A stretch of DNA of 64,000 nucleotides from Mesostigma viride (lineage: Eukaryota; Streptophyta; Mesostigmatophyceae; Mesostigmatales; Mesostigmataceae): positions 1,265,699 through 1,329,698 of the forward strand of contig RPFO01000090.1 in assembly GCA_009746045.1 (NCBI GenBank). The letters are read 5' to 3'. The position numbers and the translations under genes were made by a program. Positions 250 to 40,486 of this stretch are shown here, one piece after another. The notes beneath the pieces are model-generated. The model ran no database searches. It was not told the origin of the DNA and was given only the letters and a program-made list of their open reading frames with translations. Positions within the stretch are counted from its first letter, which is position 1. Each line of letters opens with the position of its first letter.

Positions 250-15769
<15,520 letters not shown>

Positions 15770-20387: not shown

Positions 20388-20390
20388 GAT
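20250..20390 (-). repeat. 141-bp direct repeat, copy 1
   Basis: Near-identical to 21558-21698. The two copies flank the 3' LTR exactly (20391-21556). Confidence 0.85.
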
Positions 20391-21556
20391 TAAAGAAAGG
20401 AGGGCTCTCAGCCGAGGACAAGGAACTGTCCCTCGTGCCTGATGACCACCTTATTGCCTCCCCTGCTGTAGAATACTGCTTTCACAACACACACTTTGCA
20501 CAGTCTGATGATGAAGCCGCACATGCGGAATTTATTGAGAAAGTTAATACAATTACAACACGTTGATAGTCTCAATATCGATGCACTCCATGCTCACGAG
20601 CCCGCAGTTAGGCAGCGCTCCATGACATGCTACCGGCCTTGCTCCCAAGGAAAGGGAGAAACACGAAGGCCACTAACGAGAGACTCGAAGAGACTACACG
20701 CTACGTGAGAGTCCTCTTCGACTATGAACCAAACCATTCGTCATGCCACACGCATGACACACGCCACACTTGTCAGTCCAGCCAGGAATGCCCAAACTAT
20801 CTTGCTGCCTGAACCATGCAAATAGAAACTGCATTCCAGTTGCCGTCCTGGCTTTCTACCACACATGCCAACAAAAGCAGGAAGGCATCCCGACAAATCT
20901 AAATTGCTACCCTGTTGCCGATCTCATCTCCTAGAGGCTCCGGCATTTCTGTCCCTGGGAATGTCCGGCATTGAGTCACGACCACCAAGGTCGAAGCATA
21001 ATATCCTTCAAACAATCTGCACGCTCACACCTTGCGTGTGAGTGGCCCAGCAAACATTGCTTCTAATCTTTCCTTTCTAGAAGAAATCCCTTTGTAGGGC
21101 TGCCAGCGATTTCGCATTCATTCCAGCGATCTGGCTCCGCACCGCAAATTGTCCTTTTCCATTTTCTGTCCAGTCCTCATAACGTTGACCCGCTATTCTA
21201 CACCACAAAGACACCTGGCCTGTCAATAGCCTCGGCGCTGTTGAAGTCCAGCAGTCCAGCTCCAGCTCCAGCTCCAGCTCCAGCTCCAGCTCCAGCTGTC
21301 CACTAACTCGCGTATGATCCTCTCGACGCTGCGCACTTGTGCTGCCGTCCGCTCAAGTACGTCAGTGCTGCGCGCCCAGCCGTGCCTGGCCCGGCGCGCG
21401 CGCACGTGCACTTTCGTCCGCTCTTATGCTGCAAGTGCTAGTGTCCCCCCCCGGTCACTAGCCTTTGTCGAAAATGCGCAGAAAACAAATTCCTTGCGCA
21501 CGTCACCGGTCTTGTGCATAGTGGGCGCCCGGATGACATAGCTCGCGTCCGTGACA
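20391..21556 (-). repeat. 3' LTR of the gypsy element
   Basis: 1166 bp, about 99% like the 5' LTR once the LINE insert is removed. Contains a short AGCTCC hexamer run (21256-21297). The minus-strand start is TGTCACGGACGCGAGC and the minus-strand end is CCTTTCTTTA. Confidence 0.85.
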
Positions 21557-21557
21557 G

Positions 21558-21698
21558 CTGTCGCGTCTGCGTACCACAATCTCCGGCGCCACCATGGCGG
21601 CTGGCCATGCTCAGCTTTGGTAAAACCCAAATGAGCTGAGCTGACGTGCCTGCCTTAACTGCATGCCCGGTGGGGTGGGCGAGGACCTGTCCCATGAT
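21558..21698 (-). repeat. 141-bp direct repeat, copy 2
   Basis: Matches 20250-20390. This copy lies between the PHD-finger stop codon and the 3' LTR, where an untranslated tail and polypurine tract would be expected. Confidence 0.85.
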
Positions 21699-21725
21699 TC
21701 CCCCCTCGCTGGCTCTCATGGCTCC

Positions 21726-22556
21726 TCACATGGCCAGCGACCGTGCCAACACCACAGCAGCTAAGGAAATGGTGACGCTACTGGTTGCGAAACGGGCAGC
21801 GACACAAACTGGGCAAAACCACTGGCCCGCTGGCACGGTGGTGAGCGCTGGCTGCAAGCAGTGCATGTGCCACCCACAATTACAGTGATCACACAGCAAC
21901 ATGGTATCCCCCTGGTCTACGCGATGGCAAACCTGACACTGTGCGTCCTTGACCCGCCTGGCCGTGTGCGGGGCGAGGTCAGGCAATAAGTTGGGCAACG
22001 AACACGGACTGAGGTTGCTTACGTTATCGGTGGTGCGACTGCCGTCGACGCCCTCCAAAATGGCGACCCCAGATGGCTTGATGGCGACGATCCGCAAGAT
22101 GGTCGGCCCCGCAGTCACGTCAAGAGTGTCGGTCAGCTGCGTGCGGAGAAATACGAACTGCCCCGGACGAAAATGCAGCTGACGGGCCATGTAAGCGCCC
22201 CCCCGGCGCTGAGCGTAGCGCAGGGTATCTCGGTGCTGGGCGATGAACAAGTTGTTCATGGCGATGGGCATAACCTTGCGGAAAGTAGCCGCCCGTGCGG
22301 TCACCTCAGCCAGAAACTGACTGGCGTTGTCAAACGCCATAGGGGTGGGGTGTGCACTCTGCGCCTCCGTGGGGAGCAAGGGTGCGCGCCCAAACAACAG
22401 GAAATACGGGGAGAAACAGGCGAGCGACTCCTGGGGTGACATTCGGTAACCCATGGCTATCCACGCCAGTTCACGATCCCACATAGTGAATGATGCTGAC
22501 TGCAGGCTCCACTTGCGCAAAGCCTGCTTGACAGTCTGCACCAATCTCTCAGCCAA
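21726..22556 (-). CDS. Gypsy integrase C-terminal part with PHD finger
   Basis: 276 codons. The start is the integrase catalytic-Glu helix (upstream HPQANGLAERL, then VQTVKQALRKW), then the integrase C-terminal fold (YRMSPQESLACFSPYFLLFG, HFRPGQFVFLR). Residues 207-251 form a complete C4HC3 PHD finger: Cys207/210, Cys222/225, His230/Cys233, Cys248/251, with the conserved Trp two residues before Cys248. PHD fingers read histone H3 tails (family knowledge). In this position many gypsy elements carry a chromodomain, so a role in choosing chromatin for integration is inferred. A hydrophobic tail follows. The frame is separated from the integrase N-terminal half by two small indels near 22560-22610. 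Confidence 0.85.
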   Translation of the reverse strand: MAERLVQTVKQALRKWSLQSASFTMWDRELAWIAMGYRMSPQESLACFSPYFLLFGRAPLLPTEAQSAHPTPMAFDNASQFLAEVTARAATFRKVMPIAMNNLFIAQHRDTLRYAQRRGGAYMARQLHFRPGQFVFLRTQLTDTLDVTAGPTILRIVAIKPSGVAILEGVDGSRTTDNVSNLSPCSLPNLLPDLAPHTARRVKDAQCQVCHRVDQGDTMLLCDHCNCGWHMHCLQPALTTVPAGQWFCPVCVAARFATSSVTISLAAVVLARSLAM

Positions 22557-23253
22557 ACCATTGGCCTGAGGATGCTCCGAGAAGTGCGACGGTGATCAAT
22601 GAGACATGCATCCAACAATTCCTGAAATTCCCCCGAAACTCCCCGCCCTGGTCGGTGACCACCTCCGCGGGGGCGCCAAACCTGGCGATGATGTCGGCGA
22701 AGTGCTTGGCGGTGGTGGCGGCCTGCTTGTCAGCAATGGGGATGAGCTCGACCCACTTGCTAAAACTTTCGACACACACCATGACATACTTGTGGCCATC
22801 TGCACTTTCATCAAAGGGCCCACACAGGTCTACGTGCCAGCGGTAGAAGAGCCCTCTGATGGGTAGGCTCATCAATTCTTTCGCATCGTGGTCCACATTG
22901 AACCGGGCCTTCACCCGGGCACACTGCGCGCAGCGAGCGACGACCTGCGCGACTGTGGCACGCATGCCGTTCCACCAATAAGAGGCGCGCACTAGCGCCA
23001 AAGTGCGGTTACCACCCAGGTGGCCATACCGCTCATGGGCTTGCTGGACGATGGCGACCCGCTTGTGAGGCGGCGGCACCACCACTTTGCGCTTGCCGAT
23101 CATTTTGTGGAGGACCCCGGCATCCCACGAGTAGGTGACCGCCCTATGTTGCACCCTATTCAACTCAGCGTCACGCTGGGCTGAGGACCAATCAACCGGG
23201 GTGGGGTGAGAGCTATCCCTTGGACCTGCTCCAACACACGCCCATCGAGCCAC
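22549..23253 (-). CDS. Gypsy integrase N-terminal half (frameshifted)
   Basis: Contains the HHCC zinc-binding module (HERYGHLGGNRTL ... CAQCAR) and the first two catalytic acids of the DDE core (WHVDLCGPF and VTDQGGEF). The frame is lost after GGEFRGNFR. Two compensating small indels separate it from the Glu-bearing half, so this copy probably makes no functional integrase unless they are sequencing errors. It overlaps the end of the methyltransferase/RT frame at 23160. Confidence 0.85.
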   Translation of the reverse strand: MARWACVGAGPRDSSHPTPVDWSSAQRDAELNRVQHRAVTYSWDAGVLHKMIGKRKVVVPPPHKRVAIVQQAHERYGHLGGNRTLALVRASYWWNGMRATVAQVVARCAQCARVKARFNVDHDAKELMSLPIRGLFYRWHVDLCGPFDESADGHKYVMVCVESFSKWVELIPIADKQAATTAKHFADIIARFGAPAEVVTDQGGEFRGNFRNCWMHVSLITVALLGASSGQWFG

Positions 23254-26200
23254 ACATCACCCATGTTGCATTCCACTGTGAGATGGCCAACCAACACCAC
23301 CTGGAGTGCTAGGTATCGTGCCAAGGTATTGTCAATGTCAAAGGACGGAGAATTACCTTCCTCCAACGCGAGGAGGCCAGCGGCAGGGGTGAAGGGAGAA
23401 GGGTGAACTGCATTGCAGCTTGCCGCAAAGTCTGCGACTGTATACTCGACTGCGCGCCAGTCTGCCTCGGCGTCGGCGTCAGCGAAGCCTGCAGCATTAA
23501 CAAAAACCACAGACCCAGGCGAGCTCTCGGCCCCTAGGGCCCGCGCACCAGTGTTGTCAACAGTGGTTGGTAGAGCATACCTGGACAGGACGTCCGCGTT
23601 GGAGTGATCCACACCTGGCCGATGGACGATTGTCAGGTGGTACTCCTGAATGATCATTGCCCACCGGGCCAGCTTACCCGTGAGTTTGTCGCTGGTCATC
23701 AACCACAATAAGGGCTGGTGATCAGTGACAAGTGTGAACACCCGCCCAAAGAGATATGGCCTGAAGTGCTTGATGGCCCACACAACGGCTAACGCTTCCC
23801 CCTCGTAGGAAGAGTACCGACTCTCGGCAGAGTTGTTACTCCGACTAGCGTACGCGATAACATGCTCGCGCCCCGCATCGTCCTTTTGTGCTAGCACAGC
23901 CCCTAGGCCTACCTTGGACCAATCGGTGTAAAGAATGAAGGGCAGAGCATAGTCGGGGGCGCGTAGGATAGGAGCGGCAGTCAGTTCCTGTTTGATGGTA
24001 TCGATGGCTCGCTGCTGAGCCGGACCCCACGCCCAGACATTGCCCTTCTTCAACAACTCAGTCAGGGGTTTGACTTTGGTGCTGAAATTCTGAATATATC
24101 CTCGATAATAGCCAGCTAGCCCGAGATACGCGCGCACCCCCGAGATGTCGATGGGCACTGCGGCGTTGCTGATGGCTTCCACTTTGGCTGCCTCAGGGGT
24201 CCGGCCACCTGGTACAATCTGATGACCAAGAAACCCTATGGTCTGTTGGGCGAACTTGCACTTTTCAGGGTGCAGCCGCAGGTTGGCCTTATCTAGGGCG
24301 ATCCGAACCTGATCGAGGTGAGCTAAGTGCTGGTCAAATGTCTCGCTAAAGACAATGACATCGTCTATGTAGCAGGCTGCAAATGGCAACCCTGCCAGCA
24401 CCTGGTCCATGGCACGTTGGAACACCGCACTAGCGTTGCGATGTCCGAATGGCATGCGAACCCACTCGTACAGACGGGTCCCACCCCAAAAGGCCAGCTT
24501 GCGCTGATCTGCCTCTACGACCTTGATCTGATGGAAGCCGCTACGCAAATCTAGCGACGACACATACTTGACCTGGGGAGATATTTTATCCAAAACATCA
24601 TCGACCCGAGGCATGGGGTACCTATCAACAGGAGTGTGCGCGTTCAGCTGACGCAGGTCAGTGGCCATGCGCATACCTGTCCACTCGCCTGTGATGGTAT
24701 CCTTCTTGGGTGCGACCACCGTGGCAGCTGCATAACTGGAGGATGAAGCGCGGATGATCCCAGCTGCCTCTAGCTCTCGACAGTTAGCATCTACGAATTC
24801 CAGCTCAGCCAAGCTCAGCCTATGCTGCCGCCTGAATAAGGGCTGATCCGTATCTAGTGGGACCCCCATGCAGCCCCCGTTGTAGCACCCTAGTTCTTCA
24901 CTGCTGAAAGCGAAAACTGAGCGTGCAGAATGCAACCAGTGCTCCATAGCCTTGCGTTGCGTGGCGGTGAGGTGCTCACCTATGGCCCATATGTGAGAGG
25001 CAGCAGGATCTGCGACTGCGGCACTCCTACTGTCGAGACAAGGCCCCCGGACAGCGGCATCGTGGAAAAGGGAAAATGCGGCTACACCGGGTGTGACGCT
25101 CACCTGCTGAATGGCACGGACTGCGCGACCGACCGATTGCTGCAGGGTGGGCGCTCCAGCGAACACCGTGCTGGACAACAAGGACGTCATGAGGATAACG
25201 CTCCATAGTTGAAGCAGCCGCGATCTCCATGGCGACCCAGTGCCGCCGGACGCTGTTGGCCGGACACCAGCCGCGTGGGCACTGACAGGCGGTGGCGGTG
25301 TGGGGATATCTCCCCCACCCTGGCGCACTTGCATTGCGGCCCGCAGAACATACCCAACCTGGAAGGCTGACATGGCTTGCCCAACGAGAGACCACCTAGT
25401 GGCCTCTAAAACCCCCTCAGCGGCGGACGCCCCCACATGGAACCCCATGCTCACCTCCCGAAACTCAGCGGGCGGCTGCACCAACAAACCCGTACCGGTG
25501 TCCCATACCAAACCCTTGCCCCGGTCCCTGTAGGCCGATGACCCCTGGTAACTAACCAAGGTGGGAAGAGCGCACATAGGCTTACCTACGTGATTGACGG
25601 GCGCGTAAGGGTGCCGATCGGCGACGTCTACCCGCTGCGTGACCAAATGTGGTGGCAGCGCCACCTCCGCGGGCATGCCGTCGTGCTGTCGTGTGATCGC
25701 ATCTACCACTGCCTGGATGGTGGTGGTGAGTGCAAGGTTGGTCCAGAATGCGCGGTACCTGTGGGTGAGCCCGCCCAATCCTGCATTGTCGCACGTGACT
25801 GGTGCCCCTAAGATGTCCACGATCTGGGCCCAGTCCTTCCTCACTACCTCGTGAGGGCTGTCGTCGGCCACCACGTTCTCAAAAAGATACGCTAGTGGCT
25901 GGTCCTGCAGCTGCTGCAAGAGTCCAACGACTCGAAGCAGATCCCAAAACAACCCGCTCCTAGGATCCGCAAGCCCGCGTCCTACGCCGGCCTGACTCAA
26001 CCCTTGACATTCCCAGCCCGCGAGGACGAGGTCTATCCTCTTGTGCCGCCTCAAAAGGCCTCGCACATGAACCTCCCCAATGGCACGGATATCCTGAGGG
26101 CACTCCCCAAAGGGATCTGTCCACGCAGACGGAGGAAACTGAGATGGATACAGGGCAGACAGCTGGGCACAGTGATGCCTATACACTGCCCGAGCGGTAG

Positions 26201-26840
26201 GAGACGGCTCTACGGCGATCAACGTGTGGCACGTACCGCCTGCAGCGAGAAAGCCAGCCAGCCCCCCTCCCATCCCAGCAAACAATTCTAGCAATACAAC
26301 CCCTTCGGACAAGACCCGCGACTCTGCCACAACATCGGCACAGAAGTTACCTTCGGTTGTCGCGACAGCCACTTGTGACTGCGATTGCCGCGGGAGATGA
26401 GAGAGTTGTTGCTGCCGCACCGCGTTGGTGACGTGCTGACGCAAAAGGGCCTGCCGCGCTTGCGGCTGCTGTCGCGCCGCCCACGTGCTGTGCAATGAGG
26501 CCCGTCCCACCAGCGCTGTTGGGATGCACGGCCGATGCTTATCACGCACAGCCCCCCCAGCTGCCGTGACCTCCCCCATCCGTACCTCCACCACCGCGTC
26601 GTGCGAGCCAGCCTCGACCCGGTTGACCGTCGAGACACGCACTGCCCCAGTGTCCGAGCTGTAGCAGCTCACCGGGATGCTTGCTTGGCGCATGGCGTCA
26701 CCGTCTCTGTCAACGATGTACACCGCGCGACCTTCCCACATGCGTACCTCGAGCCGCATGGGAAACATGACCTCCATGCCGACCAGCACGTCATACGATG
26801 ACTGCTCGGTCACAAGGGCATTCACAGGGATGCAGGCCAT
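23160..26840 (-). CDS. C5 cytosine methyltransferase - reverse transcriptase - RNase H polyprotein
   Basis: 1226 codons without a stop. Residues 1-30 finish the aspartic protease (VLVGMEV). Residues 175-510 are a C5-MTase: motif I LELFAGMGGGLAGF (184-197), motif IV GWECQGLSQAG with catalytic Cys278, motif VI FENVV (320-324), motif VIII HRYRAFWTN (360-368), motif X VGQAMSAFQVGYVL (486-499). FENVV and HRYRAFW resemble DNMT3/DRM-type enzymes. Residues 540-561 are hydrophobic. RT spans about 660-880 with catalytic YIDD at 824-827; RNase H spans about 960-1080 (YTDWSKVGLGAVL). RT copies the element RNA; the MTase would methylate cytosines in DNA (family knowledge). Motif IV has Glu in place of the usual Pro before Cys (codon GAA). 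The frame is intact while gag and integrase are broken. Confidence 0.93.
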   Translation of the reverse strand: MACIPVNALVTEQSSYDVLVGMEVMFPMRLEVRMWEGRAVYIVDRDGDAMRQASIPVSCYSSDTGAVRVSTVNRVEAGSHDAVVEVRMGEVTAAGGAVRDKHRPCIPTALVGRASLHSTWAARQQPQARQALLRQHVTNAVRQQQLSHLPRQSQSQVAVATTEGNFCADVVAESRVLSEGVVLLELFAGMGGGLAGFLAAGGTCHTLIAVEPSPTARAVYRHHCAQLSALYPSQFPPSAWTDPFGECPQDIRAIGEVHVRGLLRRHKRIDLVLAGWECQGLSQAGVGRGLADPRSGLFWDLLRVVGLLQQLQDQPLAYLFENVVADDSPHEVVRKDWAQIVDILGAPVTCDNAGLGGLTHRYRAFWTNLALTTTIQAVVDAITRQHDGMPAEVALPPHLVTQRVDVADRHPYAPVNHVGKPMCALPTLVSYQGSSAYRDRGKGLVWDTGTGLLVQPPAEFREVSMGFHVGASAAEGVLEATRWSLVGQAMSAFQVGYVLRAAMQVRQGGGDIPTPPPPVSAHAAGVRPTASGGTGSPWRSRLLQLWSVILMTSLLSSTVFAGAPTLQQSVGRAVRAIQQVSVTPGVAAFSLFHDAAVRGPCLDSRSAAVADPAASHIWAIGEHLTATQRKAMEHWLHSARSVFAFSSEELGCYNGGCMGVPLDTDQPLFRRQHRLSLAELEFVDANCRELEAAGIIRASSSSYAAATVVAPKKDTITGEWTGMRMATDLRQLNAHTPVDRYPMPRVDDVLDKISPQVKYVSSLDLRSGFHQIKVVEADQRKLAFWGGTRLYEWVRMPFGHRNASAVFQRAMDQVLAGLPFAACYIDDVIVFSETFDQHLAHLDQVRIALDKANLRLHPEKCKFAQQTIGFLGHQIVPGGRTPEAAKVEAISNAAVPIDISGVRAYLGLAGYYRGYIQNFSTKVKPLTELLKKGNVWAWGPAQQRAIDTIKQELTAAPILRAPDYALPFILYTDWSKVGLGAVLAQKDDAGREHVIAYASRSNNSAESRYSSYEGEALAVVWAIKHFRPYLFGRVFTLVTDHQPLLWLMTSDKLTGKLARWAMIIQEYHLTIVHRPGVDHSNADVLSRYALPTTVDNTGARALGAESSPGSVVFVNAAGFADADAEADWRAVEYTVADFAASCNAVHPSPFTPAAGLLALEEGNSPSFDIDNTLARYLALQVVLVGHLTVECNMGDVWLDGRVLEQVQGIALTPPRLIGPQPSVTLS

Positions 26841-27268
26841 ATGTCGGATGGCCTGAGCGGGTTGAGGATGACCATTACCTGGACCGCAGTCATGGCAAAG
26901 GGTTTAGCGGCAGGGCCCTGCCAGCCCGCCACGGACACATGACTGTCCCGCAGCCCGCCATTCTCCCTGGTTAGGTTGAGCAACTGGGCCAGCCGAGCAC
27001 TGATAACGAGTGGCTGGGCCCCGCTGTCCAGTTTCACGACCAATTCATGGTCAGTACTGTAGACCACGTTGCTCAGGGGCTCCCCGTGCCCCTGCGCCTG
27101 AAACGCCATTGCTGGCTCGCCATCCGGATATGAGGTGACAGTGGGTGCCCCAGGCACTACGCACGCCCGCTGCGCGTTGTCCAAGACACCATGAGCGACA
27201 TGACCCACGATTACCGAAGCCGATGCAGGGCGATGCCCGACAAATGTGGCTGTCTCAGCGTTGTGCAA
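26822..27268 (-). CDS. Gypsy aspartic protease region
   Basis: The minus-strand frame carries the retropepsin signature LVVKLDSGAQPLVISARLA (catalytic DSG). It overlaps the 1226-codon frame by 19 nt in a different frame, which suggests programmed frameshifting or a small indel. Upstream it is cut by the CACTA element: gag sequence resumes beyond 35895. Confidence 0.75.
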   Translation of the reverse strand: MHNAETATFVGHRPASASVIVGHVAHGVLDNAQRACVVPGAPTVTSYPDGEPAMAFQAQGHGEPLSNVVYSTDHELVVKLDSGAQPLVISARLAQLLNLTRENGGLRDSHVSVAGWQGPAAKPFAMTAVQVMVILNPLRPSDIWPASL

Positions 27269-27287
27269 CACTAGGAACTCGGGAACC

Positions 27288-27640
27288 GTAAAAGTGGTAA
27301 AAGTGGTAAAAGTGGGTGGTAAAAAGTGGTAAAAAGTGGTAAAAAGTGGTAAAAAGTGGTAAAAAGTGGTAAAAAGTGGTAAAAAGTGGTAAAACGGTGG
27401 GAAAACGGTGGGAAAACGCTAGGAGAAAAGCAGGTGGTAAAATCATTTTACCACCTTTTACCACCCCTTTTACCACCAAAGTGGTAAAAAATACCACCAA
27501 GTGGTAAAAGCGAGGGTGGTAAAAACACGCCACAAAGTGGTAAAAGTGAGGGTGGTAAAAAGTGGTAAAAAGTGGTAAAAATGAGGGTGGTAAAAAAATA
27601 CCACAAAGTGGTAAAAATGACAGTGATAAAAAAGGGGAAA
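27288..27640 (+). repeat. CACTA left subterminal repeats
   Basis: About 25 units of AAAAGTGG(T) and AAAAAGTGGT, first direct, then partly inverted (ACCACTTT). Such arrays bind the accessory transposon protein in plant CACTA elements (family knowledge). Confidence 0.85.
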
Positions 27641-28204
27641 ATGCAGATTTTGCCAGCATTACAACACAAGCACTGTTAAGAACAGCTTAACAGGCCATCA
27701 TTCCAAATGGTTTCTTTATTAGAAATAATAATACATCCCATTAACAGTTGTCTCTCTTGATTTACAATGAGGATTTAGCCCCACATTGGGCGTCTCATCG
27801 ATACGTTTACACCATTGTGAAATAACACAGGCCGCATCAAGCCCAGCCAATTAATTTACTTCTTCTTCAGGTGTCATCATGATCAATGATGCTTCTTTGC
27901 CTGAACAAAGCCACACAGTTGCCAGCACTCATGCTCTGGAGGCCTGCAGGCACACAGAGCACCACCATTGAAGAGGACACAAGGGCAGCAAGGCAGGGGG
28001 GGGGGGGCAGTCAGGCACGGCAGATAGTTGTTGCCCAGCAAAACATCCTATGCATGGTGAAATGGGTTATGCCTGTGGGTATGATGCATGACCTAGCATG
28101 AGAGTGATACATACATGAGTAACAAAAATATACGCACATGGCAATTGGGTGTGACAACACCACATCACTACATAGCTAAAACGTGCTTCAGAAAAAACAT
28201 TCCA
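27641..28204. other. CACTA spacer
   Basis: AT-richer untranslated stretch between the subterminal array and the minus-strand gene. Contains a G12 homopolymer near 28000. No gene seen. Confidence 0.5.
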
Positions 28205-30312
28205 CTAAATTACCGGATCAGGAGTCTGACTCTGGGACTCCTTTGCTTGCCGCTCCAGCTCAACTTTCCGCTGCGCTTTTGCCATCATGGCCTTGAGCGC
28301 GGCAAGCTCCAGTTCCGCCTCGGTGAGATCTGGCGCGGAGGGAGCATCGGCAGACGCCGTTGCGGCCGGAGAGCTAGAGGCAGGCGGGATCGCTGGCGCG
28401 GAGGGAGCACCGGCAGACTCCGTTGCGGTCGAAGAGCTAGAGGCAGGCGGGATCGCTGGCGCGGAGGGAGCACCGGCAGACGCCATTGCGGGCGAAGGGC
28501 TAGAGGCAGGCGGGATCGCTGGCGCGGAGGGAGCACCGGCAGACGCTGTTGCGGCCGGAGAGCTAGAGGCAGGCGGGATCGCTGGCGCGGAGGGAGCACC
28601 GGCAGACGCCGTTGCGGTCGAAGAGCTAGAGGCAGGCGGGATCGCTGGCGCGGAGGGAGCACCGGCAGACGCCTTCTCCTTGGGTGGCGCCCGCGCTCGC
28701 TTGGCCGGTACATACTCATCCGACACCTCCTCCTTCTCCTCTGCTGGCCCCCAACTCTCCTTCAATTTCGCACGTGCGCCTCGAAGGTCGTCGTCAGTGA
28801 CGTTGCCCAGAAGGACCCACGCATTCTCGTTGCCCTCGGCGTCACCGTAATGCATCGTGGCAAAGTCAACAAACAGCATTTGCGAGCCCCCATCACGCTC
28901 CACAAACCGCGTGCCGTAAGGGGCCTTGAGCTTCGGCTTCACCTCCACCACTTTGCCAGGCTCCCAAACATACGCAGCCGGCCGCGCCCCATCGCGCTCG
29001 TACTTGTACCTTTGTGCCACGAAGGCCCCGTGCAGTGCTTCTCCGAAACCACCAGGGCCCGGTCGCTCTTGAACCACCGCGGTTGGCAGTAAGGTGCTCA
29101 GATAGTGCGCAAGCCCCAAGTCCATGGGACCACTAGGAAGCTTTCGCTTTGCAGCCGGCTTCTTGCTGGCGGCCGGCTTCTTGCTGGCGGCCGGCTTGTT
29201 GCTGGCGGGCGGCTTGTTGACGGCGGGGCGCGACGTGATGGGCTCGAAGACATCTGGCTTGATGGCAGGCACACGAGCAGGCGGGAGACCATCCGGCATT
29301 GGCAGGTCGGCCAGCTTGGGCACCGTAGTGGGCGGCTCCACGGTGTTGTTGGGCACCGGAGGGGACGGCTGCACAGCGTTGCTGGGCACCGGAGGGGGCG
29401 GCATGACAGGCTGCGTGCCAACGGGAGGGGGCGGCGGTACAACCTTCTTGGCCACCGGAGGGGGCGGCATGACAGGCTGCTTGGGAACGGGAGGGGGCGG
29501 CGGTACAACCTTCTTGGCCACCGGAGGCGGCGGCCTCACATCCGATACCTCCACAGGTGCAGGCGCGTACCCTGCCACTTCCTGCTCTAACTCCTCCTCA
29601 AGGGCTTGGAGCCGAGCTCTGAGTCTCCGAATTTCATCTGCTCGGACGCCTGTGGCATGCTGCACAGGCTTGGCCTCCGGCTTGACCTCCGGCTTTACTT
29701 CCGGCTTTACTTCCGGCTTGACCTCCGGCTTGGCCGCCGGCTTGGCCGCCGGCTTTGCCGCCGGCTTGGCAGCAGGAGTTGTCTGCAAGCAGAGGGCGGG
29801 GCATGGAATAAGGACGTTAACATTCGGGAAGTCGGTTAGTAGCAGACCTGCGATGAAAGAAAAAACCAAGAAGCTTGCAGACTCCTGTAGCTAAAGATAG
29901 CGTTATTACCTTTGGCATGTTGGTCACGTCGCTTAGCGCTTTGGTATTTTCCTTCACGTCATCATCCTCGTCCTCGGCAACTCTGCCTCTTTTTTAAGCT
30001 GGAGTTGCTTAGCCACCGGCTCAGCTCCTTTTTTACGAATTCTTCAACACTTAGGGCTTTGGGTTTGGAGCCCTTGGGCTTCTGGGCGGTGAGCTCACCA
30101 GTCGTCGGGTCTACCACCCAGCTGGATGCCTCATACTTATCCAGCTCTGCACGGTTGTCGTCAGCCACACATGTTTCTAGAAAGTTTATGCAGCTCTTCT
30201 TTACCCGGTTAATGAGAGCATCCACCATGGCGCCATCCTGTTCCTTGAGGACATACCCCTCTACGAGGTATGCACGGCCAAAGGTCGTGATTTGCAGTCT
30301 TAAGGTCCGCAC
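28205..30312 (-). CDS. CACTA accessory (TnpA-like) proline/alanine-rich protein
   Basis: Two supported exons on the minus strand: about 30312-29910 (donor AAG|GTAATAACG) and 29782-28205 (acceptor TGCTTGCAG). Exon 1 has a DALINRVKKSCINFLETCV-type helical segment. Exon 2 has KPAAKPEVKPE repeats, a short coiled coil (RRLRARLQALEEELEQEV), poly-Pro stretches, a 21-residue repeat (about five copies, GAPSAPAIPPASS core) and a charged C-terminal helix ending TPDPVI. An A6 run near 29990 shifts frame before the donor, so a further small intron, a slip or an error must be assumed. A role as subterminal-repeat binder is inferred from position only. Upstream exons were not resolved. Confidence 0.6.
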
Positions 30313-30719
30313 ATATTCCGAGGGAACGACGTTTTGTTTCGGCTTTTCCTCTTCTCGCTTGCATCAAATCGCTCCCACTCCTCAGGACTGCACACGTGAG
30401 CTGGTCGTAGCACTGCTACCCTTCTCGGCATTTACAACGTTCGGTCGCACACCACCATGCGACCAAGGCTGGCTAAGTCCGGAATCCCCCCGTTTTGCGA
30501 ACGGAGACGGTGCCAACGTATACATGACGCACTGCACCTGCCTCTGTCCGCCGTTGGATTCAGCAGATCGACGAACCTGGCAGCATCCCGCGCAAAAATT
30601 TTTTGAACGTCTTTCGCCAAAAGGCACCAACGGCAGCTACACAAACGGCCGGACCGCACGCCTCGCGCGGGGCCCGCACGCCCCGCGCGGCTGCGTGCGG
30701 ATCGGCTAAACTCCGTACT

Positions 30720-31320
30720 GCTTGGTACAAGTACAGAGGCCTCAGGAGCTAAGGCTGTACCGTTTCAGTAGACTTCTACCAATGAGCCCGTGACTAACCA
30801 ACACTACCGTACACTGACCGTAATATCTACCATTTGAATGACTGAGAAAATGTCCGTTTGATCAAAAGGGATCGACGACATCGAAAGCGTTGGCGAGCAG
30901 ACTCAAACTTGCAACGGGTGACTTAGCGGCTATCACGGCGGCGGGTGGCACCAGAAAGATGGCGGTCCCCCACCCATGGATACCGGAATCGAGCCGAACA
31001 CTTACATCGACACACATGCTAGCTGGCCAAATTTCGTGATGTCTCCTTTCCCTTCCTCCACGGATACCTACATTGTCCAGTTTCATTGGTCATCCTGCAG
31101 GCTTCCTGAGTTTTATCGCCAAATTATGTTGGATGCGTTCCTGGAAATGTCGACTGAGCCGGACTTCATGGTCACGGTTGATTAGTGAGCTGCCAGTGGT
31201 CTCACTGGCGCAGACGCCCTAGCGTGGCTCGATTTGTGATCCCGATGGCGACTGGTTAGCCACGGAGGGCCGGCATTGACCATCAACGGTCGATGCCGGC
31301 CCTCCATGTAGAGATTGTAA
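30720..31320. promoter_or_regulatory. Divergent intergenic region of the CACTA element
   Basis: Lies between the minus-strand accessory gene and the plus-strand transposase and probably holds both promoters. A small frame at 30976-31185 has a segment (YIDTHASWPNF) resembling the transposase (FMDTHSSWPAF), perhaps a decayed duplicate. GCCGGCATTGACC...GGTCGATGCCGGC around 31269-31302 can form a hairpin. Confidence 0.45.
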
Positions 31321-34300
31321 ATGCGTCAAGGACAGACAGTCGATGAATTCATGGCCGAGGACCCTGACGACGGGTCGGCCAGTGGAGAGGATGCAGCACG
31401 CCAGTTTGCTAGAAATTATGACGAAGCAGTGGCCAGAGTCAAGGACGATACGCCATTGTACCCGGGATCTGAGAGCAAGGCCTTGATGTTTACATTGCAA
31501 TTGCTGACGCTAATGGGGGAAAACTCATGCCCTCAGAGCTTTGCTGATGAGCTCTTCAAGCTGTTGGGAAACGTTCTCCCCGCGGGCAACACTCTGCCCG
31601 ACAGTATCTGGAAGGCACGGAAAGTGATCAAAGGCTTGGGCTTGGGGTACCGTGTGTACGATGCCTGCCCATGCGAGGGTTACTTGTACAAGGACAAGAT
31701 TACTAAGAGCTGCCCTCTTTGCAAGCTGTCGCGCTACGAGACGTACACTGACAGAAACGGTGACATCGTCAACTCGCGGAAAGCGCATCGCCAGGTTAGG
31801 CACTTCCCCCTGATGGATCGGATTAGGGCCTGGTTCCGAGTCCCGGAAATGGCGGAAGCCCTTCAGTACGCTGCGAAACATGAAAACAGGGAGCCAGACT
31901 CATCCACGCGCGTTGTGGACGGCTTGAAAGGCAGGTTTGCACTTGTTTCTACGCCTTCTGTTATGCAATGTGTGCCAAAGTATCAAGTTCGAGATTTTTC
32001 CTCTTGCGCTTATCTTTTGTTTGTACTGCTCTGATGGATACCTTTCTTTTTACGTCTGGTGTTTCTTGTGCATGGACCTGTTCGTGCAGACAGCCGTGCC
32101 ATCCAGCACATAAAGAACAACTGGGACTTTCGCAGCCAGCCGCGGAACACCATCTTCCTTCTGAATTTTGACGGAGTATGTCCAAGGTCTTTCATGGATA
32201 CCCACAGCAGCTGGCCCGCGTTTGTTTCCTGTGTCAACTTGCCCGAGTGGGTGATGGTGAATGGGCGGTTTTGCCCTATGGTGCTTCTTGTGGGCGCCAT
32301 GAAGGGGAAGGCACCCAAGAACATGACCATTTTTTTGGACTTGATCGCTGAGGACTTCCTGGTACTGTGGAAGGGGTATTACATTTGTGATGTGACGCTG
32401 GACGTGGCGGGTGTTTACACTACGACATTTGTGAGGTCCATTCTTGCTGGCATAATTCACGACTACCCGGCATACTCCAAGTCCCTGAACATTCCAGATG
32501 CAGGGTACTATCAATGCGTCCTACATGGTGATGAGTGGCGTGGGGTTTTTATCTCAAATGGCCGTATCGTTCTCCTTGGCAATGACCGCATGTTTCCCGA
32601 GGGTGACCCCCGCCGGCCGGCTCACGCTCCTGTTGTTCAGGAGATGGACCATGCTGGCTACCTGAAGTACTGTGCTACGCTAAAAAAGCAGCCCGAGCCG
32701 TTTCTCAAGTTACCGTACTGGGTTCACCTGAAGATCCGTCATTCTATTGACGAGTTCCATCTGTGTCCCAACAACTTCAAGCGGGTCATTCATTGCACAA
32801 GCGGTAATTGCTAAACATTTAATTGTATCATTTCATTGTGATTGTTGCATGCATTCATTGACTGTGGCCTATCTGTTCACATGGAAAGCTGATGTAATAT
32901 TGTTTTGTTTTTTTTTTCTGTTTGTACTATATGCAGGGAAGGCTATGGCGACCGGGTCACTTCGTGGCAGGCTGAAGGTCCTCGGTCTGAACCCGGAGCT
33001 GTGGCGGCCTGATGAAGACCCACCACCGGAGGGAGACCCACCACCGGAGGGAGACCACCAAAGTCCACCGAAGAAAGGCCGCAAGAAGAAGAGGGCGCCA
33101 GCACCGCGCCCCGGGTTCCAGCTGACGGCTGAGGAAAAGGCTGATATCAAGCGTAAGTGTGACATTGGGTTTTTATTTTTCCCGTAATTTGGAAATTTAA
33201 TATGTAGGACTGACTATGGTCTGTGTGATTTACATAGGACTGACTATTTTTTTCGGCTGTCGTGTTACTACTATGTGTTATTTTTTTGCGTGTGGTTGTA
33301 ATGCGCAGGTCTCGATGACATCATGGCGCATAGCCTACCCGACTACTTCACCGGCCGGATCAGTGGCTTGCTCTGCGATGCGAAGAGTACTGAAAAATCC
33401 AAGACGCGTGACAAGATCCTCTACTTTTGCAAGCAACTCCCGACCATCTTGCGTGGGCGGTTAGATGACGATGCACGGCAAGCATTTCTCCTTCAATCAG
33501 CGGCCTGGGACTTTGTGTTTTCTAGCGGCCCGGCGACTCAGCAGCAGTTGGATGACTGCGGCGAGATGTTTTTGCTTGCTGCTGTGGCGATGGAGCGTAT
33601 AGCGCCAGCGTCTGAGATGGCAAAATCTGTTCATATGATGGCCCACCTGGCCCAGCAAATCCCCTTGTTGGGTCGATGTGACACCCGCACCATGGCGTCG
33701 GGCGAGCGGATGATGGGGGCCATCACGAAAGCTAAGCTGTCCAACGTCAATGTGGAGTGCTCCATGGACGGAGCATATCGCAAGTCTGAGGCGCTGACCC
33801 ATCTGGCCTATCACATGGTGAAAACCGGGATGGTAAGTACACGCTAGTGACCGATTTTTTTTTTTAATGGATTTGTGTGCAGATTTAGTGTTATGTACGC
33901 GCTCCTTGTGGCACGGTCTTGTGCTGCATGCAGCTAATTTCTGTGCATATTTGTGTGCGCTGCTTGCAATGTCTTGTTTGCTTTCTTTTTTTTCTTTCAG
34001 CCAAAAGACCGCTACTACATCTGGGACGTCATCCACGCAGACCCGTCCAAGAAGGTCGAGTTGGGGGGGCGCAGCCGCAAGAATTTCTACACTTTCACCG
34101 CCGCGGAATCTGATGAAGTGGGCGCGATTTTGTTGGAGTATGCGCTGCCCAATGCGGAGTACAAAGATCCCGAAGTCAACGGCGATGAGGCCTACTGGTA
34201 AGACGCCGCTGTCCTATTATTGTAAGTTGCTATTCTTTGAGCTGATTTTCTTTCAGTATAGGGAACTTCATCTGATTTCCAAGGACTACTGCCGTTATTC

Positions 34301-35430
34301 TAATTTTTTTTTCTTGCATTGCTATCTTGCTTTGTATACGATGTGCATGCAGGCGGCCCTTGTGCAGCGACCTCTCATGGCTCAAAGACTGGATCGGACT
34401 CAACCAGCAGCCGCTGGTCCCGGAGCTTGTCCAGGCTGCAGCAGCCGGCGTGCAGCTCAAGGCTGAGGAGTATGATAGGGTGCACTTGTACGGTTTCAAT
34501 TACCGGACAAAAGAAGCTGACAGGAAGCAAGCATGGCGGACTGCAAACTGTGGTGTAGCCTACCATAAGGAGGGAAGCAGCACTCAGTACGGCTACCTGA
34601 CCCACATTCTCGTGGCAAAGCTGGTGCAGCCGGTGGGGCAGTGGACTCAACAGCTTGTGCTGAGAGTAGAGCTTTTCGATGCATCGGAGGTGGCTTACAT
34701 TCGGGATCAACGCTTGGTGTTGGTCCGCAGCGCCGAGGCACCACGCACGGCAAAGCTAGTGTGGCCAACATCTGTTAGCTCTGTTGGGTTTGTGCTGGAC
34801 CCACGGCATCAGCCCCAGCTTTCGGTCATTCACTGCAAGCTGCCCCGTCACCTGGCAACCGGGTGGGCTTTGGAGAACGAGTTTTTCCAAAGCACGGCGA
34901 CAAGGTGGCAGGAAGACATCAGGTACTTCCCACCTGAGCCGCCCGCTGAACGGCCGCCCGCTGAACCGCCGCCCGCTGATCCGTCGCCCGCGCCATCAAG
35001 CACGGCGGCACGACCTTCACGCGCAGCCCCGCCGCGCAAGAAAAAGAAGCCGCCCGATGAACGGCAGCCCGCGCCGGCAACCACGGCGGCAGGACCTTCA
35101 CGCGCAGCCCCGCCTCGCAAGAAAAAGAAGCCGCCCGCTGAACGGCAGCCCGCGCCGGCAACCACGGCGGCAGAACCCTCACGCGCAGCCCCGCCTCGCA
35201 AGAGAAAGAAGAAATCTGAGGCTTTGGCGCCTGCATCACACAAGGGGAAGGAGCCCATGCCCCCGTTGCGCACAAGTGCACGCGCGCGCACGGTCAGGGA
35301 CTATAGAGAACAAACCCTAGCAACGAGGGGAATGACAGTGATTTTAACGGTAGTGATGCCAAGGATGATTCTGATTGATGCTGCTGCGCCAGCATTTTGC
35401 GGCCTCATTAGATGCTGCTCACAAGTGTAA
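31321..35430 (+). CDS. CACTA transposase (TnpD / Transposase_21-like), 6 exons
   Basis: Exons 31321-31934, 32094-32803, 32937-33152, 33309-33832, 34001-34197 and 34353-35430 join in one frame through GT-AG introns to 1112 codons, with no stop. Exon 1 has the family's zinc-binding block (YDACPCEGYLYKD ... KSCPLCKLSRYE) and PLMDRIRAWFR. Exon 2 has the catalytic-core region (FLLNFDGVCPRSF, IFLDLIAEDF, IIHDYPAYSKSLN, YYQCVLHGDEW). Exon 4 has the VHMMAHLAQQIPLLG/GERMMGAITK region seen near the C-terminus of plant TnpD proteins. Exon 6 ends in Pro-rich repeats alternating with basic RKKKK clusters, likely nuclear localisation signals. It would cut and rejoin DNA at the CACTA ends (family knowledge). 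The gene appears intact. Confidence 0.88.
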
Positions 35431-35509
35431 TCATGCCGATATTATGTTGAATAAAGATGCATCATTCATTGTTTGGGCCTAAACTGACTTGTTGTCGGTT
35501 CAGCCCTTG

Positions 35510-35876
35510 TGTTTTTTACCACTTTTGTGCTCGTCGTGGTGTTCTTTTTACCACTTCAGCCACTTTTTATCACTTTTTACCACTTTTACTGCTTTTTACT
35601 GCTTTTTACTGCTTTTTACTGCTTTTTACTGCTTTTTACCACCATTTTCCACCTTTTACCACTTTTACCACCTCCGTTAGGTGGTAAAAGTGGTAAAAGG
35701 TGGTATTTTTTACTGCTTTTTACTGCTTTTTACTGCTTTTTACTGCTTTTTACTGCTTTTTACTGCTTTTTACGGCTTTTTACGGCTTTTTACGGCTTTT
35801 TACTCCTTGTGGGTGGTAAAAAGTGGTAAAAAGTGATAAAAAGTGATAAAAAGTGATAAAAGTGGTATTTTTTACC
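35510..35876 (+). repeat. CACTA right subterminal repeats
   Basis: About 30 units of TTTTTACTGC, TTTTTACCAC and AAAAAGTGGT type, partly inverted relative to each other, mirroring the left end. Confidence 0.85.
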
Positions 35877-35894
35877 ACCCCCGAGTTCCTAGTG

Positions 35895-38250
35895 AACCTA
35901 CGGGCGTCCATTGTGTCAGCGTACCGCTGTACCTCTGACGCATGCGACCCGAGCACCTCCACGGCTCGCTGACCGAACCACTCGACCACTTGCCGGGGAG
36001 TGTATGCAGGCGTGTCCACGACCGACGGCATAGGGTATAATGGCAACAACCTGCGCCGCTGCTCTGCCCCAGCAGGATTGTCGTGTTCCAGGGTGGAGCC
36101 GGTCCGAGCGGGAGCCATGCGAAAGGACTGAGGCAGCTGCCCCACAGTCTCACTTGGCTGCCCCACCTGAAACGACGGCGGTGCACGTGCTTGCTTCCCT
36201 CGCGCGCCAACTGCGTGGATGTCCAACGCCATCACGTCGGCTGGCCGCCAGAAGTCCTCGTCCCTGTATTGAACCTGCGATCCCCCATCCTCCCTTTCAC
36301 GTCCCCCCGCCTCGCCCGTCGGCTGAATGATGACCACCCCCGCGTCCACCTTCTTGTCCTCCACGCGTCCGCAAAGTGCACCCCCGGCGCTGGGCACTGC
36401 CCCGCGCCAGATGGGTGCGGACCGTTGCCGGGTGTGACTTCTTACACGCCTTGGGACAATCACGTTTGATGTGCCCATCCTGACCGCACAGGAAGCAGCC
36501 CGATTTGCGCGCATCCGTCCTACCCGTCTGTGAGGACGTGCCCCCCCCAGCTCGCGTCGGCGGAGCGGCAGCGTCCTTGTTGCTGCCAGCGGCGTTACCC
36601 TGGGTTGCATCATGCGATGAGGCGTTGCGAGACCCCCCTTGGTTCCTGCTAGCACCGTGGCCGCCTTGCGGGCGCGCTTGTCTTGTGGCAGACGACTCAC
36701 CCGACTTGGCCTTGGTCAGCGCGTCGACCTTGGCCTGCAGCTCGGCCACCACCGTGCTTACCGAGATCCGGCCTTGCGCGTGTCGTCGCATCATGGCCCT
36801 GACCTCAATGCACAGTGACCGCAATCGCCACGGCTGGCCGTTGGGCGGCGTGGGCAGCTCCATCTCCTTGGAGCCTAGCGCTTGCAGCCATTTCTGACAC
36901 GCCAGCTTTTCGGACCAGTCCTCCACTTCGCCGGCGAACTCCATCATGAGGCGCTCGTAAGATTGCTCCGGGGTTTCACCCTCGGCTATCTTGAAACTGC
37001 GCCACTCACGCTCTGCCTTGATGGTCTCCACCGGGTATTCCTGGCGAAGGAGGCCCCACAGTTCCTCGGCAGGGTCGACACCATACATGATGTTGTCACA
37101 GTCGGGCTGGCCACGCCCGTCGAAGCCGAACCACACGTCCGTGTGACGCGTGTACAGCGAGACCTCTCTCCACTGCTCCACCAGCCTAGCCACTCGCCTC
37201 AGGGTAAGGCCGTGAAAGAAGAAATGCATGTTGTTCATCACAAACTCATGCATTACAGCGCCTTGCGTAGTCATGTATTGCAGATCAATCCATGACTTGT
37301 ACGCGTTGTAGGCCTGCGCCAGCGTGGCCAGATTGCCGGTTGTGGAGAACTTCTCGCGCATGTCCACCCGTGGTAGGGTGGGCATCTTCGCGCCTTCCGG
37401 TATGAGGCGCACCCTTTGCGGGTACTGCACCCCATCGGCATCCTCCGGCGGTCGCTGAGCTGCGCGTCCCTGCGCCAGCGTGCTTGGGCGTGCTGCCTCC
37501 CGTACTCGGAAAGCCAGCGGCGTGGTTATGTCCTCCATGGGCGGAATGCGCCCGATTGGCACACTTGACCACCGTGCAGTCGACCCGCCGGTCAGCGCCC
37601 CACCGCCTCGCCCAAACGGAATTGAGACCCCGCCTGGCAGCATGCGTCCTGGTGCACCCCTGCGTGGGTCCATCGCGCGCGCCAGCCCTGCCCCGTTCTC
37701 CTCGATCGTGCAATCCGTCTCGCGCTTGATCGAAAGGCAGGCGCCTGGGCGCCAGCGTATACTCGCCCCGTGGCTGACCATCCGCCTCACCAAGCAAGTC
37801 GTGCTGGGTTAGCGACCCAGCCAAAACCCCCGGTTCCATCGGAGCCCTTCCCGCCGCATTACCTGAGGTTGGCGGCTGGTCCCGCTCCCTCGGCTCCGCG
37901 GCAACACCACTTGGGCCCGGCATCGTTGCCTGCCCGTCCCATGGTGTGGACTGCAGATGACGACCCTCTACGGCCACCAATCTGTCGGTCACTTCCCGCA
38001 TCTGCAGCGCCAGTTGCTGCTGCAACTGAAGCGACTGTTGCTGCATCTGCGCTTGCATCTGCGCGAACAGCGCCACCATACTCAGCGGCGCTTCTTGGTC
38101 GCGACTCTCACCCACTGCGGGTACGGCGGGAGGAATCCCGCCATTCGACCCCGGAGCGGGCGTGTCGGCATCTGCTCTATTTGCATCCGCCATGGCTCGA
38201 GTCTGCGCTCGCGTCAGTGGCATGCACCAGCTGACCGATGGGCAAAACAA
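35895..38250 (-). pseudogene. Gypsy gag, frameshifted
   Basis: Three minus-strand frames make one gag. 38250-37700: start MPLTRAQTRAMADANRA near 38220 and a Gln-rich coiled coil. 37793-36297: capsid-like region and a CCHC zinc knuckle CFLCGQDGHIKRDC near 36495. 36400-35895: post-knuckle spacer that runs into the CACTA element. At least two frameshifts separate them. Gag packages the element RNA (family knowledge). The knuckle is complete, but the shifts suggest this copy depends on others. Confidence 0.8.
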
Positions 38251-38522
38251 GAACCAACAAGCCTAGGTTTCGCTGAGATCGAAGAAGCAACAACCAAAGG
38301 CTTTATAACAGGCGTCAAGGATAACGACTCGACTAGCCTGCCAGAAAAAGACAAGAGCCAGCAAATTCTGGCTAGTTCTATTTTCTTAAAATCTGTCTCA
38401 AGACACTTCCTTTACAAACTGTCAGCCAGGCCGTTCCCTGTACTGCTGATGGTTGATAAACACTAAAGCCAACGTCTTGGCTTCGAACAGAAGGAAGCAG
38501 ACTACCGGGTAGTCTCTTCGAG
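38251..38522 (-). other. Gypsy 5' leader
   Basis: Untranslated stretch between the 5' LTR and gag, where a primer-binding site is expected. I did not identify the tRNA match. Confidence 0.5.
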
Positions 38523-40486
38523 TAAAGAAAGGAGGGCTCTCAGCCGAGGACAAGGAACTGTCCCTCGTGCCTGATTAATTAATTAATTAAACTCGTGCTC
38601 CCGCTGGGGAGTCACGGAGCACCGAAGTGCTTTTAATCCCTGTGTGTGCACTGCAGGAGAAAGGGCAGAGACCCCCAGTCTCCTTCATGCCAAAGGCATG
38701 CCACAGCTGCAATCGGGCGCGGCTAGCTAAAAGGACAGGCTAACGATCCGGCAAACTGTGGGTGCAATAAGACCCATGTGAGCATATCATAGCAAGGAGC
38801 GTGGGCAAGTAATCTGAGCATAGCCAGGGCGTAGCATGGCTGTACTAGGACTAGGCTAAGGCTATGGCTGGTTGTGTACCGTGCGTTGGCGGCACGTGAC
38901 TAGGTGTGTTGGCACAGCTAGGCAACATTCTAGGCATGGCTGCCTTAGCGGCAGTGACGCCAATTGTTACAAGCTAGGGCTAGCTATTCTAGCCCGCTGG
39001 GGGCGTCCACATCTTGTGGTTGATCATCAGGTCCCCGCCCCTCCAGTACACCTTGGGCTTCTGGGGGTCCTGCTTATGGCGGAGGTATTCCGGCCACAGG
39101 TCGCGTCGCTGCTGTTGCTGAGCGGGGGTGAGGTCGTCATCCAGCGTCCAGGTGAGGTCGTGCAACCGCTTGCGACGAGAGAGGAACCGCTGCTTATCCT
39201 CAGGGGAGGGGAGTAGGACTGGTGGGGGGGCCGCCTTGTCCCGTGAGTGGGGAAGGCGGTGGCACCCGCGCAGTTCTACCTCACCTACTACCAGGCCCAT
39301 GAGGGTAAGAAGCTGGTTCTTGAGCTCGTCAGCAAGAGAGGTTGACGTGCCTGATGACCACCTTATTGCCTCCCCTGCTGTAGAATACTGCTTTCACAAC
39401 ACACACTTTGCACAGTCTGATGATGAAGCCGCACATGCGGAATTTATTGAGAAAGTTAATACAATTACAACATGTTGATAGTCTCAATATCGATGCACTC
39501 CATGCTCACGAGCCCGCAGTTAGGCAGCGCTCCATGACATGCTACTGGCCTTGCTCCCAAGGAAAGGGAGAAACACGAAGGCCACTAACGAGAGACTCGA
39601 AGAGACTACACGCTACGTGAGAGTCCTCTTCGACTATGAACCAAACCATTCGTCATGCCACACGCATGACACACGCCACACTTGTCAGTCCAGCCAGGAA
39701 TGCCATTGCAAGATAGTTTGGCAAACTATCTTGCTGCCTGAACCATGCAAATAGAAACTGCATTCCAGTTGCCGTCCTGGCTTTCTACCACACATGCCAA
39801 CGAAAGCAGGAAGGCATCCCGACAAATCTACATTGCTACCCTGTTGCCGATCTCATCTCCTAGAGGCTCCGGCATTTCTGTCCCTGGGAATGTCCGGCAT
39901 TGAGTCACGACCACCAAGGTCGAAGCATAATATCCTTCAAACAATCTGCACGCTCACACCTTGCGTGTGAGTGGCCCAGCAAACATTGCTTCTAATCTTT
40001 CCTTTCTAGAAGAAATCCCTTTGTAGGGCTGCCAGCGATTTCGCATTCATTCCACCGATCTGGCTCCGCACCGCAAATTGTCCTTTTCCATTTTCTGTCC
40101 AGTCCCCATAACGTTGACCCGCTATTCTACACCACAAAGACACCTGGCCTGTCAATAGCCTCGGCGCTGTTGAAGTCCAGCAGTCCAGCTCCAGCTCCAG
40201 CTCCAGCTCCAGCTCCAGCTCCAGCTGTCCAATAACTCGCGTATGATCCTCTCGACGCTGCGCACTTGTGCTGCCGTCCGCTGAAGTACGTCTGTGCTGC
40301 GCGCCCAGCCGTGCCTGGCCCGGCGCGCGCGCACGTGCACTTTCGTCCGCTCTTATGCTGTAAGTGCTAGTGTCCCCCCCCCGGTCACTAGCCTTTGTCG
40401 AAAATGCGCAGAAAACAAATTCCTTGCGCACGTCACCGGTCTTGTGCATAGTGGGCGCCCGGATGACACAGCTCGCGTCCGTGACA
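38523..40486 (-). repeat. 5' LTR of the gypsy element, split by a LINE
   Basis: Matches the 3' LTR at 38523-38575 and 39346-40486. Between these lies a LINE fragment bounded by CGTGCCTGAT at 38566-38575 and 39346-39355. An extra short palindromic insertion at about 39705-39722 (CAAGATAGTTTGG beside CCAAACTATCTTG) is absent from the other LTR. Confidence 0.88.
38576..39345 (-). mobile_element. LINE fragment with ORF1 C-terminus
   Basis: A (TTAA)n tail on the left, 3' UTR, then a minus-strand frame (39300-38989) encoding a LINE ORF1 C-terminal domain: LDDDLTPAQQQQRRDLWPEY and KVYWRGGDLMINHKMWTPP, the L1 ORF1/Transposase_22-type ending. It is 5'-truncated with a perfect 10-bp target-site duplication. 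A homologous ORF1 end is found at 56270-56445. Confidence 0.85.

Follow-up and report, generated by a model that had tools for sequence, protein, structure and literature searches.

The 64,000-nt stretch of Mesostigma viride DNA analysed here (the window) carries on its minus strand a Ty3/gypsy retrotransposon with long terminal repeats (LTRs). Its domains follow the order gag–protease–C5 cytosine methyltransferase (MTase)–reverse transcriptase (RT)–RNase H–integrase–PHD finger, and the placement of the integrase last, after RT and RNase H, is that of gypsy-type elements. The initial annotation had placed the element at 21726..27268. This span does contain pol, but the element is larger, with the LTRs and gag beyond these limits, as well as a nested DNA transposon. 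Two features of pol had also been missed: the glutamate in motif IV of the MTase, and the division of the integrase between two frames. The architecture and its recurrence are firmly established, and the coordinates are collected in Table 1.

The 1226-codon frame passed the Pfam cut-offs for DNA_methylase (40.8 bits, cut-off 22), RVT_1 (97.5 bits) and RT_RNaseH (130.8 bits). The YIDD of the RT was located at 24371-24360, and the MTase motifs I, IV, VI, VIII and X described earlier were all found. Frame 23253-22549 matched Integrase_H2C2 (64.6 bits) and rve (40.7 bits). At the end of frame 22556-21726 lies a full C4HC3 PHD finger (38 bits against a cut-off of 24) matching the whole 47-position profile, so that both domains on which the earlier claim depended, the MTase and the PHD finger, stand above their thresholds. 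No chromodomain match was obtained with Pfam on the integrases of the window copy and of two further copies, L044 and L045, which have the PHD finger instead. A chromovirus identity was rejected because the integrase has no chromodomain. The order from protease to PHD had also been read correctly, although the protease match itself is below threshold (16.6 bits against a cut-off of 28.2), with a readable D-S-G. The CCHC knuckle of gag scored 25.6 bits (cut-off 20.8).

Table 1. Features of the retrotransposon and of the nested transposon in the window.
Feature	Position	Strand	Basis
5' LTR	38523..40486	-	direct-repeat comparison
Candidate self-priming site CTCGAAGAGACTAC	38509..38522	-	directly after 5' LTR
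gag region, frames broken	35895..38250	-	CCHC zinc knuckle in frame 37793-36297
CACTA/EnSpm-type DNA transposon, between gag and pol, not part of the retrotransposon	27269..35894	+	ends, duplication, transposase
Protease-like stretch with D-S-G	26918..27052	-	sub-threshold Pfam match
1226-codon frame: end of protease region, MTase, RT, RNase H	23160..26840	-	open reading frame and Pfam
C5-MTase domain, motifs I to X	25326..26300	-	Pfam part 26291-25872
Motif IV GWECQGLSQ, Glu before catalytic Cys	25992..26018	-	translated frame
Reverse transcriptase (RVT_1)	24216..24710	-	Pfam
RNase H (RT_RNaseH)	23640..23954	-	Pfam
Integrase, first frame: H2C2 23076-22903, rve 22845-22633	22549..23253	-	Pfam
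Second frame: integrase C-terminal part and PHD	21726..22556	-	open reading frame and Pfam
PHD finger (C4HC3)	21804..21938	-	Pfam
Polypurine-like run GCGAGGGGGGA, then AATCATGGG	21691..21709	-	sequence inspection
3' LTR	20391..21556	-	direct-repeat comparison

The host rbcL, a 454-bit match in a 481-aa frame, looks like that of green plants, and the host is accordingly taken as a green alga. The genome (440 Mb in 2243 contigs; the window's own copy is L015) was searched for further copies, and all copy counts are lower bounds, taken from scored rows out of longer candidate sets. With the window MTase as the query (116 scored of 527 candidates), at least 23 rows matched at 89-100% (family A, window copy included) and at least 93 at 74% (family B). 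The integrase-PHD frame (140 scored of 2279 candidates) gave at least 35 rows at 97-100% (A) and at least 105 at 81-82% (B). For a third family, C, one of its own MTases served as the query; of 116 scored rows, at least 30 matched at 87-100% (C) and the other 86 at 65%. Among the matches listed, 38 of the 93 family B MTase rows and 28 of the 105 PHD rows stood in a 2,074-aa open frame; each of these 28 PHD rows had an MTase row in such a frame no further than 6 kb away, which gives at least 28 such family B copies. In family A, 9 of the 23 MTase rows listed had a same-strand PHD row at a distance of up to 6 kb, and the 1642-aa frame of family C was present in 6 of the rows listed. The single frames of L044 (B) and L045 (C, 1642 aa) passed the Pfam cut-offs for DNA_methylase, RVT_1, RT_RNaseH, Integrase_H2C2, rve and PHD. 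The combination of MTase and PHD finger is firmly a family trait, found in many copies on many contigs and in three families; the same-genome search recovered it in other family A copies and in families B and C, the opposite of the absence that would have spoken against the initial annotation.

Families A and B are 93-100% identical, in pieces, across LTR, leader and gag (shared stretch at window 36438-38575 and L044 1061-3124), but their pol DNA is only about 75% identical. With near-full identity on one side only, A and B are recombinants whose junction lies close to the knuckle of gag. Having taken up the nested transposon, and with its integrase spread over two frames, the window copy is a relic; its frames are broken. 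The same split is seen in a second family A copy (window 22549-23253; L042 7707-9189), so the copy type with the split integrase has multiplied, be it before breaking, by help in trans or via frame-shifting. The shared split is perhaps multiplied damage, or perhaps a frame-shifting mechanism.

A relative was also found outside this genome. Among the best 80 of 152 confirmed relatives, the best match was L126 (also L206), with 41% MTase identity over residues 4-339; the next reached 28%. L126 is the 9,285-bp contig CADCWO010000201.1, filed under the Synechococcales metagenome-assembled genome AVDCRST_MAG81. It has the same order as the window element: gag with two CCHC-like knuckles, protease with D-S-G (20.5 bits, below the cut-off of 24.3), MTase, RT, RNase H, integrase and PHD. 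The PHD finger (6459-6593) closes a 1047-aa frame and scored 46.7 bits in the whole-record search and 41.0 bits in another. Since cyanobacteria are not expected to harbour gypsy elements, the contig is very likely a eukaryotic stray. Scans of the viral contigs detected no relative, whether the query was the pol frame of the window, its MTase domain, a further alignment (A2) or the integrase-PHD alignment, and none was detected among the plasmids scanned. A first scan of genome contigs gave none either, before the later scan that gave L126.

Next we compared the coding regions between families A, B and C. The proportion of nonsynonymous differences (pN) was 0.175-0.254 in the MTase, 0.087-0.132 in the RT and 0.12-0.18 in the PHD finger (72-76% identity), at synonymous proportions (pS) of 0.73-0.77, 0.67-0.92 and 0.58-0.92, respectively. 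For the linker before the MTase, pN was 0.44-0.52 and pS 0.61-0.70. As synonymous sites are near or at saturation, Ka/Ks values are rough and often not computable. The MTase and the PHD finger, unlike the linker, are clearly held under constraint between the families. Seven family B loci are 99.89-99.98% identical to L044, and this near-identity points to a recent spread.

In 22 family A copies compared with the window pol, transitions were found at 28 of 512 CpG positions, at 35 of 1583 other C/G positions and at 28 of 1406 A/T positions; L015, alignments of fewer than 500 bases or below 85% identity, and sites with fewer than four sequences were left out. The excess at CpG over other C/G positions (Fisher p=4.8e-4) fits past CpG methylation; it is modest and does not identify the responsible enzyme.

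The MTase domain contains the C5-MTase motifs I, IV (with its Cys), VI, VIII and X, all in order: I is LELFAGMGGG (26291-26262), VI is FENVVA (25883-25866), VIII is THRYRAFWTN (25766-25737) and X is RWSLVGQAMS (25397-25368). The Pfam match is confined to positions 4-111 of the 324-position profile, but the phage family phrog_363 aligns to residues 5-332 of the 351-aa domain. Families A, B and C retain the catalytic Cys, the ENV and the motif that binds S-adenosylmethionine (SAM), and all three have GWECQG as motif IV in place of the Pro-Cys pair. To our knowledge, proline before the catalytic Cys is near-invariant among C5-MTases. In the fetched phage and prokaryotic loci (forward frames, only matches with ENV within 80 or 90 residues), this residue was Pro in 181 of 182 motif matches and Val in one, and Pro in all 37 of a second set; Glu occurred in 0 of the 182 and 0 of the 37. 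L126 has the usual Pro-Cys. The Glu is therefore derived within families A, B and C, and kept.

A profile of the four MTases (A, B, C and L126) was compared with solved structures and scored highest against DNMT3A (51.0 bits), DNMT3C (48.9 bits) and DNMT3B (44.8 bits), followed by DRM2 (35.9 bits), HhaI (32.5 bits) and DNMT2 (21.3 bits). The DNMT3 match lies mainly over motifs IV-VIII. In an IQ-TREE phylogeny of 75 rows, the same four MTases group together with 100/100 support on a branch 3.22 long, and the 66 phage or prokaryotic rows and four host MTases stand outside this clade, under long-branch and composition warnings. The tree and its alignment were built with 68 phage or prokaryotic/stray rows chosen out of 126 found, with no DNMT3 row among them. 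We therefore use "DNMT3-like" for a resemblance and not for a placement, because the match is mainly to motifs IV-VIII and the tree has no DNMT3 row.

The host has MTases of its own, among them L211, a 979-aa frame with an MTase match of 169.1 bits and a BAH match that narrowly misses its cut-off (30.2 against 30.8 bits). Its DNMT1-like enzyme and its dcm-like MTases (L004, L005) were both rejected as the nearest source, since they stand apart from the A/B/C/L126 clade in this tree, with the warnings given above. Identical stand-alone C5-MTase genes, in frames of 364, 313 and 325 aa, occur in several sets on many, mostly small contigs (L005-L011, 22-704 kb). These sets are perhaps endogenous viruses or other mobile elements.

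When compared with solved structures, the PHD finger matched 118 distinct sequences at E<=0.01, and among the best 60 of these the nearest were BAZ2B (60.3 bits), CHD4, WSTF, Lid and PHF12. It is of the C4HC3 type, like the PHD fingers of BAZ2, CHD4 and KDM5/Lid. Several PHD fingers of the BAZ2B/CHD4/Lid group read H3 tails unmethylated at K4. H3K4me3-reading PHD fingers carry Trp-Tyr/Phe-His at a motif where the element has Gly-Trp-His, and this substitution also speaks for reading of K4me0. In another very abundant host repeat, an identical PHD match (44.1 bits) recurs in most of 150 scored rows, in frames mostly of 162-276 aa; no MTase was found in the examined part of this repeat at L209 (7049-7834).

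That algal retrotransposons can carry MTases had been stated in the initial annotation, and De Mendoza et al. 2018 (PMC5890265) bear this out. They describe KnitGypsy-Dnmt3 of the streptophyte Klebsormidium nitens, which like the present element is an LTR Gypsy with a DNMT inside the Pol open reading frame, in that case Dnmt3-related. KnitGypsy-Dnmt3 is intron-free, has several copies and a Ka/Ks under 0.2. A figure legend gives its repeats a DIRS-type arrangement, whereas the present element has direct LTRs; the main text of the paper has no mention of a PHD, whereas the present element has a C-terminal PHD and the Glu in motif IV (PMC5890265). This comparison is by description and not by sequence. 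The same source reports DNMTs in DIRS and LINE elements of Symbiodinium. The DNMT of SymbioDIRS-Dnmt3 performed de novo CG methylation in a yeast test, and SymbioLINE-Dnmt showed no DNA methylation in yeast, with an RNA substrate suggested. These elements share a retrotransposon-borne DNMT with the present one, but they have a tyrosine recombinase or an endonuclease and no DDE integrase, and the main text mentions no PHD (PMC5890265). A 2025 survey repeats the Klebsormidium and Symbiodinium cases (PMC12344493).

Gypsy integrases of Ectocarpus also end in a chromatin reader, but this is a chromodomain or Tudor domain, and the paper has no mention of a PHD and, in the passages covered, none of a C5-MTase (PMC12477816). 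Ginger1 transposons have a Gypsy-like integrase/transposase, and a listed family, Ginger1-9_HM, has a C-terminal PHD like the present element. They are, however, cut-and-paste DNA transposons with the PHD beside Ulp1 and with no RT or MTase (PMC2836005). We found no description of an MTase and a PHD in one element in the open-licence literature, most subscription journals lying outside the search. The retrotransposon-borne DNMT is thus already known; new are its pairing with a PHD, the recurrence of this pairing and the conserved Pro-to-Glu change in motif IV.

We propose that this is a gypsy lineage whose DNMT3-like MTase, between protease and RT, and PHD finger, at the integrase end, serve self-methylation and guided landing, a proposal to which we give about even chances. 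The MTase would travel with the RT and methylate cytosines in the element's freshly synthesised double-stranded DNA. Copies would then arrive methylated and be kept so by host maintenance methylation, which is plausible since the host has its own MTases. The PHD finger fused to the integrase would read H3 tails unmethylated at K4 and steer integration to chromatin without active-promoter marks, and the outcome would be less damage to the host and persistence of the element. The conservation of MTase and PHD finger, the modest CpG-transition excess and the likeness of the PHD finger to H3K4me0 readers all fit such self-marking and targeting.

Methylation of DNA and marks on histones are commonly regarded as means by which a host fights its transposons. 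A lineage whose single polyprotein combines a writer of methylation with a histone reader, both constrained across families, and which has recently spread to many near-identical copies, would make it possible to ask why a parasite should methylate itself, whether this shapes the host methylome and how integrase readers choose their sites. If our proposal is true, elements of this kind put a mark on their own DNA and select their landing sites. Only tentatively do we go further, to an old gypsy lineage acting as both writer and reader, methylating its own nascent DNA and landing in H3K4-unmethylated chromatin, with an MTase whose new and kept Glu-Cys active site has perhaps an altered chemistry or substrate. 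If active, the Glu-Cys motif IV would call into question a near-invariant feature of C5-MTases.

Several points weigh against self-methylation with guided landing. The CpG excess amounts to no more than about 2.5-fold and could have host enzymes as its source, and the shared ancestry of the copies weakens the test. Family B showed CpG transitions at 0 of 609 positions, because its copies hardly differ and are too young to tell. Among the matches listed, 14 of the 23 family A MTase rows have no PHD row within 6 kb, a count in which truncations and insertions are not separated. The window copy itself is defective, with the same split integrase frames in L042. The Glu before the Cys may mean a different chemistry or activity, and the K4me0 preference of the PHD finger is predicted from sequence similarity. 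The role of the known retrotransposon DNMTs was left open by their authors (PMC5890265).

The main rival to self-methylation is a non-catalytic or RNA role of this unusual MTase. The enzyme may no longer methylate DNA and instead provide the polyprotein with a structural or DNA-binding module, for which DNMT3L is a non-methylating precedent, or with a SAM pocket. The conservation of GWECQG in three families, a variant absent from the 182 and 37 motif matches elsewhere, would agree with this, but the catalytic Cys, the ENV and the SAM-binding motif have been kept in the same families despite near-saturated synonymous sites, and we consider such a loss of function unlikely.

Protection or mimicry seems less probable still: methylation would hide the complementary DNA from host nucleases or deaminases instead of establishing silent copies that the host tolerates, and the PHD finger would only tether the integration complex to nucleosomes without choosing a mark. 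Several PHD fingers do bind bulk chromatin, and protection has been proposed for the known retrotransposon DNMTs (PMC5890265). However, the residues of the PHD finger are conserved between the families and resemble those of BAZ2B/CHD4-type readers. Action of the MTase on RNA, either the genomic RNA of the element or tRNA, in aid of packaging, translation or priming, appears to us a fainter prospect again. It would accord with the candidate self-priming site and with the RNA substrate suggested for SymbioLINE-Dnmt after its inactivity on DNA in yeast (PMC5890265), but the MTase profile is nearer to DNMT3A than to DNMT2. A one-off chimera or an assembly error joining unrelated genes, as the mosaic window copy with its nested transposon and broken frames might suggest, was rejected as practically refuted by the many copies on many contigs, in three families and on an independent contig of another organism from another project.

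The LTRs are direct repeats of 97.5% identity over 1141 aligned columns, with 11 substitutions at 1123 positions compared. Window 20434-21556 pairs with 39346-40486, and the pairing continues as 20388-20443 with 38520-38575. The 5' LTR is broken by an insertion of about 770 bp (~38576-39345), with TCAGGCACG repeated at both insertion ends. The 14-base CTCGAAGAGACTAC is complementary to GTAGTCTCTTCGAG within each LTR (39609-39596; 20697-20684). The same complementary pair is present in the family B copy L044 (807 and 1114), and so in families A and B; it was not found in the examined stretches of L045, L042 and L043. We take this possible self-priming arrangement to resemble that of Tf1.

No clear target-site duplication was seen at the two outer ends of the element, and a 147-bp repeat adjoins the 3' LTR. 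In several copies, this 147-bp stretch separates the polypurine-like run from the LTR (window 21553-21699; L042 9219-9365; L044 9220-9368). It stands again directly after the window 3' LTR (20245-20391), where it runs on into an old copia-like reading frame. The polypurine run may mark the true start of the LTR.

The gap between gag and pol in the window is there because the CACTA-type transposon inserted at this point. The 8.6-kb transposon has perfect inverted ends starting CACTAGGAACTCGGG and a tnp2 transposase (Transposase_21 at 32059-32814, 60.2 bits). It is flanked by a 2-bp TT duplication: the window reads TAGGTT...TTGCAC, against the empty site TAGGTTGCAC in L042 and L043, two other family copies without the insertion. 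The transposon bears long arrays of GTGGTAAAAA-like subterminal repeats.

Elsewhere in the window, neither Pfam nor PHROG gave a match for a pair of overlapping frames (721 and 396 aa, minus strand) at 58245-61356. Repeat units of about 82, 74 and 63 bp make up tandem arrays at 3732-5310, 6392-8253 and 28267-28736.

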